From positions 1 through 35,643 of the forward strand of contig JAIDWS010000027.1 of the NCBI GenBank assembly GCA_029059055.1: a DNA stretch of 35,643 nt, in the 5' to 3' direction. How positions within the stretch are numbered: the stretch's first letter is position 1; every line of letters starts with the position of its first letter. The position numbers were made by a program, and so were the translations under genes. The DNA comes from Alphaproteobacteria bacterium. GTDB taxonomy: Bacteria > Pseudomonadota > Alphaproteobacteria > Rs-D84. The notes below the pieces were generated by a model that did not search any database, was not told the origin of the DNA, and saw nothing but the letters and a program-made list of their open reading frames with translations. This document shows positions 2,282 through 21,100 of this stretch, piece after piece.

Positions 2282-4003
2282 ATGAAAAAAATAATCTTTC
2301 TTTTAATTGCGTGCGTGATGCCAGTGATGACGTTTGCGTCTGAATTGCCCAGCATTCTGACCGATGCCGACGCCAGTATTTATGCCCAGATTTTTGACCT
2401 GCAATCGCGGGAAAAAATTGATGCCGCCATGCGCCTGGAACGGCAATTGACGGATTCACTGTTGATGAACGAAGTGCTGTATCAGCGCTATATTTCCAAA
2501 ACATATCACACCCGTGGCAAAGAAATTGCCGCATGGATGAATAAATATTACGATATGCCCGGTGCCGAACGTATGGTCGCGTTGGCCAAAATTAAAAAGG
2601 CCACCGTCCGCAGTGCGAAATTACCCCGTACCGTTACCGGCACATCCATCGAAACGGCCCAGTCCGAAACATGGACCCAGAAAAAATATACCGGCGATAC
2701 CGATAAAAAAATTACTCAATTTAAACGGGCGATTCGCAGTGGCAGTACCAAGACCGCGCGTCTGATTTTACAGGATTCTGCGTTTCGGCGGAAATTGACG
2801 GAATCTGATTATGGCCGGTTGGCGGGTCGGTTGGCGTACATTTATTACACAAACGGTGAATATGAATTGGCGAAAAAATGGGGCTTTGTTGCGTCCGACG
2901 CGGATTCTGAATACGGGTTGTGGACGATGGGATTGCTGTATTTCAAAGAAGAAAAATTCCGCGAAAGCCAAAAATATTTCAGTGCCATTCTGGATTTGCC
3001 CCAGATTAACAATGCCCGAAAGATAGAGGCCGCATTCTGGGCCGGTCGCGCCGCCGACGCCAACGACGACCGCAAAAGTGCCAAGAAATATTGGTCCATT
3101 GCCGCCGCCCACCCGATGGCGTTTTATGGGGCTTTGTCGGCGACCATGCTGGGGGAACGGCCGCGCTATGAATTCTTTGAACAGGATTGCAGCGACGAAG
3201 ACATGGACGCATTGCGCGAAACCAAATATGGGAAAATGGCACTGGCACTGTTACAGGTCGGGCAAAAGGGCCGGGCCGAAGAATATTTGAAATTGTTAAT
3301 TACATCGCGGGCGTCCGACCGGACTTTGCACGCCGTCAATTCCGTCGCGACGGTGTACGGGTTGCCGCGCGTATCTATCCAGGCATCCGGGGTTATCAAA
3401 GACCGCGGTATCTTGGAAATTGATGATGACATCATTTATTCCGCGCAATATCCGTTGCCGGATTGGGAACCGATGGGCGGATGGTCGATTGACCGCGCGT
3501 TGTTGTTGGCCATTACTAAACAGGAAAGTGGATTTAAAACAAACGCCAAATCCACCGCCGGTGCAAACGGATTGATGCAGTTGATGCCGGGGACCGCCAA
3601 ATTGGTCGCGCGCCAGAATAAAATGAAATTGTCCGATATTGATATGTCCAAACCGGAACATAACATGTTCTTGGGGCAACAGCATATTGTGGATTTGTTG
3701 GCGCATCCCAATATCAATAATAACATTATCAAAATGTTGGCGTCGTATAACGCGGGGATGGGGACCGTGGTGAAATTTGAAAAAAGCTTTGAAACATCCG
3801 ACCCGTTGCTGTATATCGAAAGTTTTCCGGCGTATGAAACCCGCGGGTATATCAAGCGTGTGATGTCAAACCTGTGGCTGTATCGCGCCCGATTGAACCA
3901 ACCGTTGACATCGATGGAAGAATTGGCGGATGGGCATTGGCCGCTGTATAACAGCGAAGATGAATATGTGCAAAAGCAAATTGCCGACCGTATGTCGATT
4001 TAA
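2282..4003 (+). CDS. slt: Soluble lytic murein transglycosylase (Slt70-like)
   Basis: Periplasmic enzyme predicted to cleave the MurNAc-GlcNAc bond of peptidoglycan, releasing 1,6-anhydro-muropeptides. The 573-aa product has a signal peptide (MKKIIFLLIACVMPVMTFA), a long alpha-helical TPR-like superhelix (about residues 30-380) and a C-terminal SLT domain. Catalytic Glu is near residue 415 in KQESGF, followed by the family's NGLMQLMPGTA and ASYNAG motifs. Starting at 2282 keeps the signal peptide at the N-terminus, although the frame stays open upstream inside nrdR. A strong terminator follows. Its last nine codons plus terminator are duplicated 3.6 kb downstream at 7617-7676. Confidence 0.93.
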   Translation: MKKIIFLLIACVMPVMTFASELPSILTDADASIYAQIFDLQSREKIDAAMRLERQLTDSLLMNEVLYQRYISKTYHTRGKEIAAWMNKYYDMPGAERMVALAKIKKATVRSAKLPRTVTGTSIETAQSETWTQKKYTGDTDKKITQFKRAIRSGSTKTARLILQDSAFRRKLTESDYGRLAGRLAYIYYTNGEYELAKKWGFVASDADSEYGLWTMGLLYFKEEKFRESQKYFSAILDLPQINNARKIEAAFWAGRAADANDDRKSAKKYWSIAAAHPMAFYGALSATMLGERPRYEFFEQDCSDEDMDALRETKYGKMALALLQVGQKGRAEEYLKLLITSRASDRTLHAVNSVATVYGLPRVSIQASGVIKDRGILEIDDDIIYSAQYPLPDWEPMGGWSIDRALLLAITKQESGFKTNAKSTAGANGLMQLMPGTAKLVARQNKMKLSDIDMSKPEHNMFLGQQHIVDLLAHPNINNNIIKMLASYNAGMGTVVKFEKSFETSDPLLYIESFPAYETRGYIKRVMSNLWLYRARLNQPLTSMEELADGHWPLYNSEDEYVQKQIADRMSI

Positions 4004-4035
4004 ATAAAAACCGCCCGACTGGGCGGTTTTTATTT
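3976..4035 (+). repeat. Direct repeat copy A (slt 3' end plus terminator)
   Basis: Sixty nucleotides covering the slt C-terminal codons (QIADRMSI), stop and terminator. They recur at 7617-7676 with 57/60 identity, the first 35 nt being identical. Confidence 0.95.
4006..4034 (+). terminator. Rho-independent terminator of slt
   Basis: Perfect stem AACCGCCC-GACT-GGGCGGTT followed by TTTATTT. Confidence 0.9.
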
Positions 4036-4067: not shown

Positions 4068-4246
4068 TGATGTGATGAATTGTCACATTGGGGCGTCACA
4101 ACCCGATGAATACGCAGTGTCCGTGGGGACAAAAAATACCTCCAACAATTTCAGGTTGGAGGGCGGCGAATATATTGAATAAGCCCGCTATTTTCTGCGT
4201 ATGATAGTTGTGAACCTCCAACCGCCTGATTCTTGGCGGATTTTTT
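4068..4246 (+). ncRNA. Structured leader RNA element, copy 1 (candidate riboswitch/attenuator)
   Basis: In order: hairpin TGTGA/TCACA (4071-4087); hairpin GGGG..CCC with loop containing CGTC (4090-4104); hairpin TGTCC-GTGG-GGACA (4118-4131); C-rich strand CCTCCAAC (4139-4146); switch strand GGTTGGAGG (4154-4162); P2 GGC/GCC with loop containing ATATATT and GAATAA (4165-4185); P3 CTAT/ATAG (4188-4207); CCTCCAACC (4215-4223); terminator CCGCC/GGCGG plus six T (4222-4246). The switch strand can pair perfectly with either C-rich strand. The downstream partner shares 2 nt with the terminator arm. AGGAG and the ATG follow. The structure was read by eye; the ligand or signal is unknown. Three other copies are in the window. 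Confidence 0.75.
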
Positions 4247-4271: not shown

Positions 4272-5198
4272 ATGCCAGAAACAAAAAAAATGCCCGGATA
4301 CGATCAGAAACTGGCCCAGGACGCTGCCGCACGGCGGGCCCAAGATGATGCGGCCCAGGCCCAACAACAATGGCGCCAGGCCGCCGCGAATGCACAACAG
4401 TTGTTGAAACTGAAAAAAGACAAAATGGCTGCAATTGATAATATTGTGCCGCCAACCCAATCTGAAATACGCAATTTCAAAGCTCGATTGGGGGCAATTG
4501 CATCGGGGATAAAGGTTGCGGGTATCTGCCAGCTGATATTTTTCACACTGGGGTCGGCCGCGCATTATTTTGATGTTAATGACGCATACGATGAAATGGA
4601 TGTTGACGGGGTGACAAATGTCCATATACCAAACGATTTTTATCGTGGGGTATCGTACGGCCAGGCGGTAAAAAACGCATATCTGTTTGATGATTTTATT
4701 CATGGTAACCCCGGTGGCACATGGCAGGCGATTGCCGGATTGATTGCGATACTGGTGACATTGGAATTGGCCCGCCGAAAAACCAAGGACAAATTTGATG
4801 ACATCCCAAGTGTCAAACGTGAAAAGGATGCCCGCAACAAATATATTCATGACATATATTCACAATTGGAAATGTTAAAGGATTATGGTGTTCGCACGGA
4901 TGATGTCATCAGTTCGTTGCGGGGGTATGCCGTAAAATTGGTGACCAAAATGTCTGAAATGGACCGTGGGTATTTGCAAAACCTGTTAAATGGGGGATTG
5001 GAAAATGCAAACTGGGATGTGGCCAATGCGATTGTTGCGGGGCATCTGAAATCGCATCCCGATGATTACAACGAAATTATCAAGATTATTGATGCGGCAA
5101 CAATGGACCCGGCGATTGTCAAAAAATATGGACGCGACGGAATTATGTCTTGGGGCGCGGCACGCGCAATGATGCAGACCCAGGGGCACGAAAAGTAA
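4272..5198 (+). CDS. Unknown membrane protein, first gene of operon
   Basis: I do not recognise this 308-aa protein. It has a charged, Gln/Ala-rich probable coiled coil at residues ~10-60, a likely membrane segment at ~75-100 (GIKVAGICQLIFFTLGSA), a ~50-residue acidic loop, a second hydrophobic segment at ~150-168 (WQAIAGLIAILVTLELA) and a C-terminal helical region of ~135 residues rich in Asp and Lys. There is no signal peptide; both ends may be cytoplasmic with the loop outside. The start follows AGGAG with a 6-nt spacer. Its stop overlaps the next start (TAATG), so the two genes are translationally coupled. Expression probably depends on the structured leader and terminator immediately upstream. 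Confidence 0.85.
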   Translation: MPETKKMPGYDQKLAQDAAARRAQDDAAQAQQQWRQAAANAQQLLKLKKDKMAAIDNIVPPTQSEIRNFKARLGAIASGIKVAGICQLIFFTLGSAAHYFDVNDAYDEMDVDGVTNVHIPNDFYRGVSYGQAVKNAYLFDDFIHGNPGGTWQAIAGLIAILVTLELARRKTKDKFDDIPSVKREKDARNKYIHDIYSQLEMLKDYGVRTDDVISSLRGYAVKLVTKMSEMDRGYLQNLLNGGLENANWDVANAIVAGHLKSHPDDYNEIIKIIDAATMDPAIVKKYGRDGIMSWGAARAMMQTQGHEK

Positions 5199-6190: not shown

Positions 6191-7614
6191 TGAAGCAGTT
6201 TTGGTTTATGATGGTTTCCGTGAATATTTTGGCGACGGCGGGCGCGTGGGGTAATGACGCCAATGCGGAACTGGACCGGAAATACCGGTGGTCGTTGGCG
6301 GCGATGGCTGACACGATAGATTATTATTACAAAAATCGGTGCAAGGTTCGCATGCCCGAATTAGCCAAGATGGGCAATTTCCTGTATGAAAACCAGTTGC
6401 GCAGCAAGCGGGAAATTCTGGAAGAATGTCGCAATGAATCCGTTAAAATGAATGCGCAGCTGGCAGTGTGGAACGCGGCGGATGCGGGGGGAAATGACAA
6501 TATTATGTGCCACGGTCAAGTCTTGACCAGTGAAACCCAAGATGGGTGTAACCTGTTCTTGAAAGATTTGATTAAAAATAACGCGAAATACACGTACCAG
6601 GGTAAATTGTATTCTATGCCGGGAACGTATGTCAAAAAGACCGGCCTGTGCAACGGCCAGGCGTACCGGGTGGTAAATGTCGTATCGGGCGCAGCCGGGG
6701 ACAACCAAATTTATCTGTTGGATGCAGATAATAAATATGTGGGGCGAATGTCACACCGCACCCAATACAATGCCACGTTTATAAACGAAGCCGCGGAATT
6801 TACCAACAAGAAAGATAAAAATGATTACCGCCGGGCGGGGGACAAGCTGGGGGTGTATAACAACAGTTATATATTCTTTCACGATGTGACGGGGATGATT
6901 GATGCTTTGTATTCCCGGGGGCGCGGCACCAACCGATACAGTGTGGGCACGTTTGCGTCGTTAATGCCCGCCGACAAGATACCGCATACATCAATCCGTG
7001 TTCCCGATTGGTTGGCTGATATGGGATATGGTGCATATGATTTCAAGGTCAGCTGGACCCGCCATGAATGTGACCCCGAAAATTACGGATTTCGCGTGCC
7101 GGGCCAATCCGACGTGGCCGCGCACACAAATGGCGTGTTATACAATGGTGCGGTTGTGACGCTGGAACAATTGGGGCATATTATCACCGGCATGCACACC
7201 CCGGATTCCGTCGCCCCCGATGCGGTCATTGAAACCGCGGTCACCAGGTTACAGGGGGGCGCCGAATCACCATATGCCAACGAACTGCGGGCGGCGGCAC
7301 AAACCAACACCGCCGCGTCCAAGGATGATACGACGTTTGTCAAAACCAAGACCCGGGATGAATCAACGGCATTTGCGCTGGCCCGGCGTCACATGGCGCA
7401 TAAATACGGATTGGATGAACGTCAAATCCGCTGTTCCGGCACGTGTAATACGGGACTGGATTCGTTTTATATTACAATTGCGGGTGGTATCCGTGATACA
7501 AACGATTTTGTGTCATGTAATTACACCGATGGTGCCACTGGCCGCCATACCAAGGTGATTTATCAATTTGATAGTATCTGCAACGGTAATGATAAAAACA
7601 TCCCGGATGTATAA
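6190..7614 (+). CDS. Unknown secreted protein, third gene of operon
   Basis: A 474-aa protein with a signal peptide (MKQFWFMMVSVNILATAGAWG, then NDANAEL), so probably periplasmic or exported. No domain is recognised. Several Cys (for example CKVRMPE, EECRNE, IMCHGQ, DGCNLF, CSGTCNTG, SICNGN) may form disulfides. The chosen ATG follows GAAGGAG at good spacing and overlaps the previous stop; a GTG one codon earlier is less likely. It is the last gene before the second copy of the slt 3' end and a terminator. With its two neighbours it probably makes one exported or envelope-associated complex; this rests only on operon structure. Confidence 0.85.
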   Translation: MKQFWFMMVSVNILATAGAWGNDANAELDRKYRWSLAAMADTIDYYYKNRCKVRMPELAKMGNFLYENQLRSKREILEECRNESVKMNAQLAVWNAADAGGNDNIMCHGQVLTSETQDGCNLFLKDLIKNNAKYTYQGKLYSMPGTYVKKTGLCNGQAYRVVNVVSGAAGDNQIYLLDADNKYVGRMSHRTQYNATFINEAAEFTNKKDKNDYRRAGDKLGVYNNSYIFFHDVTGMIDALYSRGRGTNRYSVGTFASLMPADKIPHTSIRVPDWLADMGYGAYDFKVSWTRHECDPENYGFRVPGQSDVAAHTNGVLYNGAVVTLEQLGHIITGMHTPDSVAPDAVIETAVTRLQGGAESPYANELRAAAQTNTAASKDDTTFVKTKTRDESTAFALARRHMAHKYGLDERQIRCSGTCNTGLDSFYITIAGGIRDTNDFVSCNYTDGATGRHTKVIYQFDSICNGNDKNIPDV

Positions 7615-7616
7615 CT

Positions 7617-7676
7617 GCAAATTGCCGACCGTATGTCGATTTAAATAAAAAACGCCCAACCGGGCGGTTTTTATTT
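7617..7676 (+). repeat. Direct repeat copy B (slt 3' end plus terminator)
   Basis: 57/60 identical to 3976-4035. It is non-coding here, starting 2 nt after the stop of the upstream gene. One substitution (CCGCCC to ACGCCC) breaks a terminator stem pair that is intact in copy A, so A is probably the functional original. Confidence 0.95.
7646..7676. terminator. Bidirectional terminator
   Basis: Stem CGCCC-AACC-GGGCG flanked by A-run and T-run. It serves the upstream operon and, on the other strand, the small membrane protein gene whose stop lies at its edge. Confidence 0.75.
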
Positions 7677-14009: not shown

Positions 14010-14237
14010 TTATAAATTTGCGCGGCTGCGCTTTATCACCAGCATTGCGAATGCCCCGTGGAAAAAGCGACGCAGGGTGCCGTCACTAAACAAATCATCC
14101 CCGCGTTCGCATCGCTGATAATCTTTCTTGCTCATCTTCAACAATGCGGCGGCGTCCGCCACACTGATGCGCAGGTGTTGCCGCGCGCACCGCATAATGT
14201 TGCCATAATAATTTGCGTCGATTAATAATTTAGCCAT
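14010..14237 (-). CDS. Small XRE-like helix-turn-helix protein
   Basis: A 75-aa protein (MAKLLIDANYYGN...) with an XRE/Cro-type pattern at about residues 16-50: RQHLRISVADAAALLKMS for helices 1-2 and KKDYQRCERGDD where these proteins recognise DNA and turn. The tail is basic (VIKRSRANL). It is likely a DNA-binding regulator, but so short that only the HTH is present. AAAGGAG seven bases upstream fixes the start at 14237. A structured leader and terminator (copy 3) lie immediately upstream, so the regulator itself may be controlled by attenuation. Confidence 0.75.
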   Translation of the reverse strand: MAKLLIDANYYGNIMRCARQHLRISVADAAALLKMSKKDYQRCERGDDLFSDGTLRRFFHGAFAMLVIKRSRANL

Positions 14238-14253: not shown

Positions 14254-14421
14254 TAAAAAATACCACCCAAGACATTCGGGTGGTTGGAGGTTAGAAACTA
14301 TACAAACCATAGCACTGCTTATTCAGATATATCGCAGTCCTCCAACCAACGGGTTGGAGATATTTTGTGTCATCACTGACAGTTTGTTCAGGTTTCTAAG
14401 CCTACACCGGTTTCCCAATGC
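14254..14421 (-). ncRNA. Structured leader RNA element, copy 3
   Basis: Read on the minus strand: weak hairpin AGG/CCT (14403-14390); TGTCA-GTGA-TGACA (14381-14368); C-rich CTCCAACC (14359-14352); switch strand GGTTGGAGG (14347-14339); P2 CTGC/GCAG with loop containing ATATAT and GAATAA (14337-14315); P3 CTAT/ATAG (14312-14298); CCTCCAACC (14290-14282); terminator ACCACCC/GGGTGGT with ATTTTTT (14284-14254). The 3' arm of the enclosing helix shares 3 nt with the terminator. AAAGGAG and the ATG of the XRE-like gene follow. It has the same architecture as copy 1, most clearly from GACA-AAAATA to the terminator. Confidence 0.75.
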
Positions 14422-16499: not shown

Positions 16500-16500
16500 A

Positions 16501-16529
16501 AAATCCCCGCCATCGGCGGGATTTTTTTA
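16501..16529 (+). terminator. Terminator of clpP-clpX
   Basis: Stem ATCC-C-CGCC / GGCGGGAT, with one bulged C, followed by seven T. Confidence 0.85.
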
Positions 16530-16592
16530 TGAATATTCGTTTTCCATAACAATATGAAATCCGTCGCCAAATGGCCGGTGGGGATTTTTTGT

Positions 16593-16620
16593 TTGAAAAA
16601 CATACCGCACATGATATCAT
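16593..16620 (+). promoter_or_regulatory. Candidate promoter of leader copy 2
   Basis: TTGAAA (16593-16598), 16 nt, TATCAT (16615-16620), with the predicted start near 16627 just before the first hairpin of the leader. Confidence 0.6.
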
Positions 16621-16626
16621 TATTGC

Positions 16627-16842
16627 GATTCCAACACGGATTGTTGGTTTCGGGACGTCGAAAATCCCGTATTAGTCCGGCATATTATTGCCGTAATCCA
16701 TTACATGGCCATGGGCCATGCCCCGACGCATTGGGTCGGGTTGTCGCAGTTATACAACAGGGCTTTGCCCAAAGGCTGCGGGGTCATTGACTAATATGAT
16801 TTTTCGAACTTCCCGACCACCAAATACTGGTGGTTTTTGTTT
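16627..16842 (+). ncRNA. Structured leader RNA element, copy 2 (divergent form)
   Basis: Hairpins: CCAAC/GTTGG (16631-16647); CGGGA/TCCCG with loop CGTCGAAAA (16651-16669); CGGC/GCCG (16678-16693); CATGGCC/GGCCATG (16704-16720). Then C-rich CCCGAC (16722-16727), switch strand GGTCGGG (16734-16740), P2 CGCAG/CTGCG with inner GGGC/GCCC (16745-16780), P3 TCAT/ATGA (16784-16799), TTTTCGAAC, CCCGACC (16812-16818), and terminator CCACC/GGTGG plus five T (16817-16838). Helix positions match the other copies, but the paired bases have changed together. The Cys-rich protein gene follows after AGCGGGGG. Confidence 0.7.
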
Positions 16843-16868: not shown

Positions 16869-17471
16869 ATGAAATGTTTAATTGTCATCAATTGTGCGCT
16901 GATATTGTTGATACCGAATGTGGGGTGGGGCGCATGCCAGGTATATTCTTATTGTGATGGGAACTGTGTCAATGCCGGACTGCCGACATTAGCACTGGAA
17001 GAGGGATGTTTAAACAACACGTGGGATTACAAATACATCGGCGTATCGGAATCCAGTGTCAGCGGCCCGTTGTATTCCATCCCGACATGTCCGCAATGCG
17101 AAACCGGATATAAACAGGTCACGCAAGAGGTAATGTTGTCCCCGTCATGCACGGTGCAATATTACGCTTGTGAATTAATTTGCACCGGGTGCAGTAATTG
17201 CAGCAGTGACAGCACATGGTCCGCGCACAGCACCGGATATGAAAAAAAGGTCAGTCGATCATGTAACTGTGGCACATGCAATGCGTCGACATCGTATCGA
17301 TGTGCCGCCGGTTATTATGGCAGTTCCACCAACGGAACATCCGGGTGTACCCGTTGCCCAAACAACGGCAGCAGCAGTGCCGGCACCACATCTGTCACGG
17401 GCTGTTGTATTTCAAGCGGGTCGGATGCCGCCGGGACATATTCTTATTCCCCACAATGCTGCTATCAATAA
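16869..17471 (+). CDS. Cys-rich secreted protein, paralogue 1
   Basis: A 200-aa protein with a signal peptide (MKCLIVINCALILLIPNVGWG) and about 30 Cys in the mature part, in patterns such as PTCPQCETGYK, CTGCSNCSS, SCNCGTCNAS, GCTRCP and the C-terminal PQCCYQ. The regular CxxC spacing suggests a disulfide-stabilised surface or extracellular protein; Gly, Ser and Thr are also abundant. The last ~85 residues are nearly identical to the 20331 protein, while the N-terminal halves differ strongly. No family recognised. It lies behind structured leader copy 2 and has its own terminator. Confidence 0.85.
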   Translation: MKCLIVINCALILLIPNVGWGACQVYSYCDGNCVNAGLPTLALEEGCLNNTWDYKYIGVSESSVSGPLYSIPTCPQCETGYKQVTQEVMLSPSCTVQYYACELICTGCSNCSSDSTWSAHSTGYEKKVSRSCNCGTCNASTSYRCAAGYYGSSTNGTSGCTRCPNNGSSSAGTTSVTGCCISSGSDAAGTYSYSPQCCYQ

Positions 17472-20306: not shown

Positions 20307-20625
20307 AGCATCCCCCGTTTGGGGGATTTTTTATTGATAGCAGCATTGTGGGGAATAAGAATATGTCCCGGCGGCATCCGTCCCGGATGAAATACAACAA
20401 CCCGTAACCGATGTTGTGCCGGCGACACTGGTTCCGTTATCGGGACAACGGGTGCATCCGGATGTGCCGTTACTGGAACTGCCATAATAACCGGCGGCAC
20501 ATCGGTATGATGTTGTGGCGTTGCACGTGTTGCAATTGCATGTGCGGTTGACTTTCTTTTCATATCCGGTGCTGTGCGCGGACCATGTGCTGTCACTGCT
20601 GCAATTACTGCACCCGGTGCAATTT
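20300..20625 (-). repeat. Inverted repeat arm 2
   Basis: Reverse-complement partner of 17180-17506, covering the 3' half of the second Cys-rich gene, its terminator and the last codon and stop of ppiD. The two arms enclose grpE, tpiA and ppiD. Confidence 0.88.
20308..20336. terminator. Bidirectional terminator between ppiD and Cys-rich gene 2
   Basis: Stem ATCCCCC-GTTT-GGGGGAT with a T-run on one side and an A-run on the other; same hairpin as at 17476-17493 in opposite orientation. Confidence 0.88.
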
Positions 20626-20906
20626 TCTGTGCATATATAATATTCAATTTTGTTTTGACATCCGGGAATGCTGATTGTGGCGGCGGATCTGGTATATCCG
20701 GTTTTACATGCATTGCATGTTTCAATTCCGTAATCGTTATAATAATATGTTGTGACCATCTGGCAATTGGATGCCGTAACTGTTGTTTCGCATCCGGACA
20801 TATTGTTGCACATTCTGGTGCCGACGCAGTTAACGCCCACCGCCACCGCGGGGCCGGTTATGCCGACCGTCACCACAGCACAAATGAATAAAGACAATTT
20901 TTGCAT
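20331..20906 (-). CDS. Cys-rich secreted protein, paralogue 2
   Basis: A 191-aa protein with a signal peptide (MQKLSLFICAVVTVGITGPAVA) and about 30 Cys. The N-terminal half (VGTRMCNNMSGCETTV, ETCNACKTGYTRS, CTENCTGCSNCSS) diverges from paralogue 1 except for shared C-x-A/Q-C-x-TGY and CTGCSNC patterns. The C-terminal ~85 residues are nearly the same (GYEKKVNRTCNCNTC, RCAAGYYGSS, SGCTRCPDNG, TGCCISSG, SPQCCYQ). Probably a disulfide-rich surface or secreted protein; function unknown. It lies behind structured leader copy 4, and AGGGG precedes the ATG. Confidence 0.85.
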   Translation of the reverse strand: MQKLSLFICAVVTVGITGPAVAVGVNCVGTRMCNNMSGCETTVTASNCQMVTTYYYNDYGIETCNACKTGYTRSAATISIPGCQNKIEYYICTENCTGCSNCSSDSTWSAHSTGYEKKVNRTCNCNTCNATTSYRCAAGYYGSSSNGTSGCTRCPDNGTSVAGTTSVTGCCISSGTDAAGTYSYSPQCCYQ

Positions 20907-20929
20907 TGTTCAACCCCTGTTTGCTGATA

Positions 20930-21100
20930 AAAACAAAACCACCCAAAATTCAGGTGGCAGGAGGTTCGAAACTATCGTAAAGAATAGCAGTGTGTTTTCG
21001 ATATATGACACACTCCTCCTGCCCAGGTAGACAGGAGATGTTTAACGTCCAGCGACGCTTTACGAAGGGTTTCGACGCCCCAACACCGCAATCCACGGTG
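20930..21100 (-). ncRNA. Structured leader RNA element, copy 4
   Basis: Read on the minus strand: CACCG/CGGTG (21100-21084); GGGGCGTCGAAACCC hairpin (21081-21067); GCGTC-GCTG-GACGT (21058-21045); C-rich CTCCTGTC (21037-21030); switch strand GGCAGGAGG (21023-21015); P2 GTGTGT/ACACAC with loop CATATATCGAAA (21013-20990, antisense readings ACACAC and GTGTGT); P3 CTAT/ATAG (20987-20972); TTTCGAAC; CCTCCTGCC (20964-20956); terminator CCACC/GGTGG with TTTTGTTT (20957-20931). The AA-to-TG change against copies 1 and 3 is present in the switch strand and in both its partners. That is the best evidence for both pairings. Confidence 0.78.

Follow-up and report, generated by a model that had tools for sequence, protein, structure and literature searches.

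The window analysed in this study is a stretch of 35,643 nt from the genome of an alphaproteobacterium of the order Rs-D84 (contig JAIDWS010000027.1), which carries four copies of a structured leader. Copy 2 spans positions 16631-16838 of the + strand, between a clpX-like gene and a gene (16869..17471, +) encoding a 200 aa Cys-rich protein with a signal peptide; there is no Pfam match for this protein, and a protein search of named genomes found no relative of it. A sigma-70-like promoter, recognized purely by its match to the consensus (10/12), precedes the leader at 16593..16620 (+; TTGAAA, 16 nt, TATCAT, with TG before the −10 element). Its placement relative to the first hairpin of the leader, H1 (CCAAC...GTTGG, 16631..16647, +), is alike in all copies as judged by eye, and the transcript of copy 2 is expected to start just 5' of H1; a hairpin of variable sequence occupies this place in each copy inspected by eye. 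Leu_leader, nse_sRNA and similar families match weakly near 16500-16610, where they trace the terminator hairpin of clpX; we took these matches as chance.

The remaining parts of copy 2, all on the + strand, are arranged as two upstream segments and a three-way junction core that carries their complements. The loop of a second hairpin, H2 (CGGGA-CGTCGAAAA-TCCCG, 16651..16669), contains a1 (TCGAAAA, 16658..16664), the complement of a' (TTTTCGA, 16801..16807) in the J3/1 segment of the core; b1 (TATTAGTC, 16670..16677), immediately 3' of H2, is the complement of b' (GACTAATA, 16789-16796) in the P3 loop. A predicted hairpin, H3 (CGGCA...TGCCG, then TAATCC, 16678..16693), comes next. The 5' strand of P1 (GGTCGGG, 16734..16740), a helix identified by covariation, can pair either with the 3' strand of P1 (CCCGACC, 16812..16818) or, through GTCGGG, with an upstream CCCGAC in an alternative helix that we call P1alt (16722..16740). 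The final ACC of the P1 3' strand doubles as the start of the stem of a predicted intrinsic terminator (16815..16838), located between the RNA and the gene. A GG is found at the start of P1 in most copies, and the first G of GGTCGGG would be a putative RNase P cleavage site, by analogy with the GGW motif of the C4 precursor (PMC5320573; Hartmann 1995).

Everything that a preliminary description had stated about the sequence of copy 2 is borne out. P3 is TCAT/ATGA (16784-16787/16796-16799) where the other copies of the window have CTAT/ATAG; P2 is longer (CGCAG...CTGCG with a distal GGGC/GCCC, 16745..16780); and the ATATAT-GAA loop is missing, with an internal loop ATACAACA / AAAGG instead (written TTATACAACA/AAAGG in our feature list). 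The loop of the hairpin then called the 5' hairpin, CGTCGAAA (16656-16663), and the segment TTTTCGAAC (16801-16809) do match CGTCGAAA and TTTCGAAC of copy 4. What had been overlooked is that CGTCGAAA is complementary to TTTTCGAAC, and that the segment 3' of the same hairpin is complementary to the P3 loop.

Copies 1, 3 and 4 have a short P2. In copy 1 (4090..4246, +) H2 is at 4090-4104 and the core with its terminator at 4154-4246, before a gene at 4272-5198. Copy 3 (14255..14399, −), with core and terminator at 14255-14347 and a1-b1 at 14382-14399, precedes a 75 aa HTH-like ORF; copy 4 (20929..21075, −), with core and terminator at 20929-21023 and a1-b1 at 21058-21075, is followed by a Cys-rich ORF (20331-20906), a homologue of the gene behind copy 2. 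In general, the short-P2 form has a hairpin loop such as GAATATATTGAATAA and a P3 of CTAT/ATAG or CAAT/ATTG, while the long-P2 form, to which copy 2 belongs, has the AAAGG internal loop, a distal stem and TCAT/ATGA as P3. The P2 loop is kept within each form (GAATA..AATAA is well conserved among short-P2 copies) and swapped for another between forms. A covariance model of the short-P2 copies recovers copy 2 in the window (E 9.9e-5), and a model of seven long-P2 copies from which copy 2 was excluded scores it at 88.3 bits (E 4.6e-17 genome-wide), in agreement with the earlier view that copy 2 keeps the fold as a variant; its homologues also retain the pairing of P1 and P3. Covariation in P1, P2 and P3 was seen across 39 and 84 distinct sequences. 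In the long-P2 type both sides have changed in 12 of 22 pairs and 96.1% of the cells are paired (86.5% after shuffling), in the short-P2 type the corresponding values are 18 of 22 and 96.9% (83.2%); the observed values were reached by no shuffle and slid controls were far lower, in alignments that, being fitted to covariance models, are biased towards structure.

The family is large. In the genome (998 kb, 38 contigs) the short-P2 model (R1) finds about 68 copies and the long-P2 model (R2, the seven copies without copy 2) gives 24 matches at E below 1e-6; our working set consists of 72 distinct copies, and we put the number of related leaders in this genome at no fewer than 70. Of 142 genomes from this order, 121 have R1 matches. 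Among named genomes the short-P2 core pattern occurs mostly in alphaproteobacterial gut and rumen MAGs, several of them Candidatus Enterousia, a lineage of the order Rs-D84 with genomes near 1 Mb (PMC12306168) and the likely source of the window. Viral contigs and a phage record that carry the core look like host sequence and are uninformative on origin. At three loci (L037, G000:C11:20321-21293; L141, 1019-1594; L143, 1020-1594), three to five leader elements stand in tandem, spaced by about 190-280 nt and with no intervening ORF, and several of these elements have lost the a/b complementarity. Repeats of other kinds occur in the window as well: a 125 nt repeat (CAATGACAATGGGGATAAAGAGCC...) with GGATTGCTTCACTGCGTTCGC motifs in three tandem copies at 1-435, and a 70 nt repeat, 90% identical between 3966-4035 and 7607-7676, that takes in the end of a gene and its terminator, for a different gene at each place.

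The complementarity of a1-b1 to a'-b' was evaluated with an ordered two-site test, in which a and b must each form at least 6 bp, in the right order and with a gap of at most 8, in a search region reaching to 9 nt from P1; a statistic based on a single free upstream helix was set aside as not discriminating (5/72 above the 99th percentile). Upstream sites were found in 67/72 copies of the genome (7.4% with partners swapped), in 52/54 copies of its relatives (10.0% swapped) and in 91/107 copies of a hold-out set (9.9% swapped), which consists of named genomes retrieved by a pattern that leaves out the a/b segments. The same test applied downstream rejects a target at the ribosome binding site of the gene: a2-b2 sites are at chance level in the genome (9/72, 9.1% expected), in the relatives (2/54, 10.4%) and in the hold-out (10/107). 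Since the upstream sites are kept and the downstream ones are at chance, the family of the window has a1-b1 and no a2-b2.

These pairing segments are also the most variable part of the leader. All 67 of the 67 b words in the genome are distinct. When 21 near-identical leaders from genes for 75 aa HTH-like proteins are compared, the promoter shows an identity of 0.89, H1 of 0.98, the stretch from P1alt through P1 to P2 of 0.79 and that from the P1 3' strand to the terminator of 0.86, against 0.35 in b1, 0.49 in b' and 0.55 in a1. The closest pair of leaders (C38:5186 and C38:23935) differs in 7/24 b columns versus 3/199 others, and the changes are compensated on both sides (GAGAC/GTCTC versus GACGT/ACGTC); among the 20 closest pairs, b sites differ at a rate of 0.45 per site and other sites at 0.12. 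This diversification is beyond what plain structural drift would give, and suggests selection for insulation between leaders. The preliminary description had proposed that loss of the P2 loop could mean altered specificity; this is not upheld, as the P3 loop, J3/1 and their upstream complements vary most, not P2. Because b differs in every copy even though near-identical leaders agree at about 88% of the remaining sites, specificity is to be sought in P3 and J3/1 rather than in P2.

The 3' end of the leader appears to offer a choice between two structures. In 107/125 copies 3-4 nt of the P1 3' strand are paired in the terminator stem. P1alt covaries with P1: a helix of at least 6 weighted bp forms in 83% of the 126 copies examined, but in 12% after an exchange of P1s that differ. 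Nested folding gives two exclusive states: fold A, with a1:a', b1:b', P1alt and the full terminator, and fold B, with P1. As calculated with ViennaRNA, which ignores pseudoknots, proteins and co-transcriptional order, fold A lies below fold B in 112/113 copies (median gap 14 kcal/mol), and in 100 it has the lowest energy of all folds; P1alt is formed in 108 and the terminator complete in 110. As an example, the predicted energies for copy 2 are −81.0 for fold A and −59.7 for fold B. In the computed structures, therefore, a terminator and a mutually exclusive alternative helix precede the gene, as in an attenuator.

The genes behind the leaders encode Cys-rich secreted, OMP-like or HTH-like products, with no common pathway and no phage antirepressor operon among them. 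Some 20 of these genes, near-identical to one another, encode HTH-like proteins of 75 aa; the member in the window (MAKLLIDANYYGNIMRCARQHL..., 14010-14237, −) has about 20 paralogues in this 1 Mb genome (G000), each with its own leader copy and a differing b segment. Words like those of the repeat at 1-435 recur upstream of many leaders of HTH-like genes. Homologues were grouped by P2 form and downstream gene, as proposed in the preliminary description, with a mixed outcome. In the genome the long P2 is mostly associated with signal-peptide genes (13, versus 2 HTH-like genes; 17 versus 27 for the short P2; Fisher p 0.002, with heuristic classes and paralogy ignored), but the genes behind copies 2 and 4 encode homologous proteins (75% identical over 134 aa) although one leader is of the long-P2 and the other of the short-P2 form, so the identity of the gene does not follow from the P2 form.

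The reading that we prefer, and regard as probable if only just, is that in copy 2 an antisense RNA leader of the C4 type has been turned into a cis-acting transcription attenuator. Its anatomy, that is the parts and their complementarity, is well supported on sequence grounds; from it we infer transcription from the promoter adjacent to H1, termination, switching, a trigger and action in trans. By default a1:a' and b1:b' would pair, with the P1 5' strand held in P1alt, so that the terminator would be complete and transcription would stop before the gene (OFF). If a1-b1 were kept from a'-b', whether by another RNA, a protein, cleavage by RNase P or kinetics, P1 could form, take the base of the terminator stem and let the gene be read (ON). 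As a and b are unlike in every copy, the at least 70 leaders of one genome would avoid acting on each other, and the length of P2 would be a side variation with no role in specificity. Some points weigh against the attenuator: the gap of 14 kcal/mol raises the question of what would turn the gene ON, and P1 overlaps the terminator by just 3-4 bp, which gives it little grip. Tandem copies that are decayed or have no ORF occur as well, and thus some copies may do nothing.

The main rival, a possibility to be taken seriously although we think it rather unlikely, is a trans-acting C4-like RNA: the core, either excised by RNase P or released as a small RNA by termination, would hit a1-b1 of new transcripts of its own locus, in a self-limiting or incompatibility-like control, and the gene would be expressed through leaky read-through. 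The C4 RNA of phage P1 acts in trans and C4 loci share the layout; sRNA-Xcc1 is a stable RNA of 88 nt whose ends coincide with the core (PMC2996969); and C4-like RNAs of Acinetobacter baumannii appear to be processed at GGW (PMC5320573). The ORF-less tandem copies also fit, as does the diversification of b, which is compatible with selection against cross-talk and, being so extreme, makes more sense for an RNA with additional action in trans. Against this stand the chance level of a2-b2 at the downstream start site and the fact that the exact a-b pair of copy 2 has a single site in the genome, in its own leader and with no trans target elsewhere, where pairing in cis should win. Action in trans may coexist with the cis switch.

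The preliminary description had thought of an aptamer, and a ligand-binding riboswitch with the P2 loop as its binding site would account for a leader with a terminator and alternative pairing, and for the conservation of the P2 loop in short-P2 copies. We find this improbable, given the two unlike P2 forms before homologous genes, the lack of a shared pathway downstream, and hypervariable complementary segments that are unlike an aptamer and follow the layout of phage C4 antisense RNA. It is also quite improbable that the leader is recognized by a regulatory protein, such as one of the many small HTH-like proteins whose own genes have such leaders: their match to HTH_31, a DNA-binding fold, scores below the curated cut-off, and the a/b complementarity would be left unexplained, even though the many near-identical HTH-like genes behind leaders point in this direction and the conserved internal loops of P2 could be protein sites. 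A simple DNA repeat was rejected on account of the covariation. Repeated DNA or a mobile cassette devoid of RNA function would agree with the high copy number, the tandem copies and the paralogous gene-plus-leader units, yet it is highly improbable in view of the compensatory changes in P1, P2, P3 and a/b, the fixed places of promoter and terminator, and the persistence of a/b complementarity in the hold-out genomes.

Taking the attenuator reading further, we tentatively suggest that this order of gut alphaproteobacteria with reduced genomes has tens of RNA switches, each self-specific and insulated from the others, which derive from a phage-type C4 immunity RNA, are subject to diversifying selection on the pairing segments, and would turn many genes for secreted Cys-rich proteins, outer-membrane proteins and small regulators on and off independently. 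If true, a phage-type antisense RNA would have become a genome-wide set of cis switches, with at least 70 copies per Mb, a density far above any that we know of for riboswitches. The leaders would also serve as a natural library, some 70 orthogonal RNA pairs strong, whose specificity can be read directly.

These results can be compared with the known systems. Phage P1 uses the C4 antisense RNA for immunity. Its record (AF234172) annotates a1, b1, c4, a2 and b2 before icd-ant, and we read in its C4 the same P1-P2-P3 core, whose P3 loop contains b' (TCACTAAC) and whose J3/1 contains a' (CTGTCAA); this logic agrees with the literature (PMC5320573), where c4-a1b1 is also listed (PMC2864571). The window leaders share with C4 of P1/P7 (RF01695, c4-a1b1 leader) the order of promoter, a1, b1 and three-way junction core, the location of b' and a', and the GG at the start of P1. 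They differ in that they have no a2-b2 at the start site of the gene, that their terminator is located after the core and not between b1 and the core, and that host genes for secreted or HTH-like proteins take the place of icd-ant.

Rfam at the gathering score finds tRNAs alone in the window and no riboswitch, and riboswitch families had no match to the copies up to E 5. The C4 model does not match the copies either (its sole match in the genome is elsewhere, at E 0.19). With a relaxed threshold, sRNA-Xcc1 (RF02221) matches copies 2, 3 and 4 with 32.5, 30.1 and 36.7 bits, and there are 23 such matches genome-wide, the best of 40.4 bits, none reaching the cut-off of 53 bits; the alignment covers the P1-P2-P3 core end to end (model 1-87 of 87). 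Since both score tests fail, the family is not to be filed under RF02221 or RF01695.

sRNA-Xcc1, known upstream of symE in integron cassettes (PMC12444791), is itself C4-like as far as its layout tells, even if Rfam does not place RF02221 in the C4 clan, and a literature search found no paper linking the two. In 30 RF02221 loci of other Pseudomonadota (L089-L118) a hairpin loop a1 is complementary to a' in J3/1 and the next segment, b1, to b' in the P3 loop, as in the window leaders; in many of them both words recur around the Shine-Dalgarno sequence of the next gene (for example CCGAAAAGGAGCAACAAGACCATG in L115 and CTAAGAAGCGACCAGAGGTAATGG in L101), whereas the window family has no such repeat. 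Complementarity scores in these loci are 41.4 native versus 30.7 swapped upstream, and 33.1 versus 29.1 downstream. The genes that follow encode phage antirepressor or SymE proteins (Bro-N, KilA-N, P22_AR_N, Rha, SymE). These loci display the full C4 layout, with an upstream terminator like that of P1 (TGCGGTATTTTTGTG) and a2-b2 at the start site, so that an unexplained integron RNA would be tied to the C4 mechanism, its predicted targets being the start sites downstream of it.

The position of the terminator separates the two groups: a terminator-like hairpin lies 3' of the core in 71/72 copies of our genome and in 1/30 RF02221 loci, where a crude scan places it between b1 and the core in 19/30. 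The same scan flags a hairpin between b1 and the core in 21/72 of our copies, mostly long-P2 ones that combine a GC hairpin with a run rich in T; these may be remnants. A related family (f4: L069, L070, L081, L082; G015, G019) has terminators in both places, and is apparently a likely intermediate between C4/Xcc1 and the form seen in the window.

Group 1 C4-like sRNAs of A. baumannii (PMC5320573) resemble the window family in their chromosomal expansion and variable a' region; they are stand-alone RNAs matched by the C4 model, while ours are leaders with a terminator before the gene, whose a1-b1 was tested by swapping. The c4-2 RNA (RF02944), a member of the C4 clan, has no match in the window; a sub-threshold match to it (34.8 bits; L096, 2890-2958, −) lies about 1.3 kb from an RF02221 locus. 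To judge from its pairing layout the window family works like C4: it is an RNA of the C4 kind, present in tens of copies, that lacks the classical second target and has its terminator relocated.
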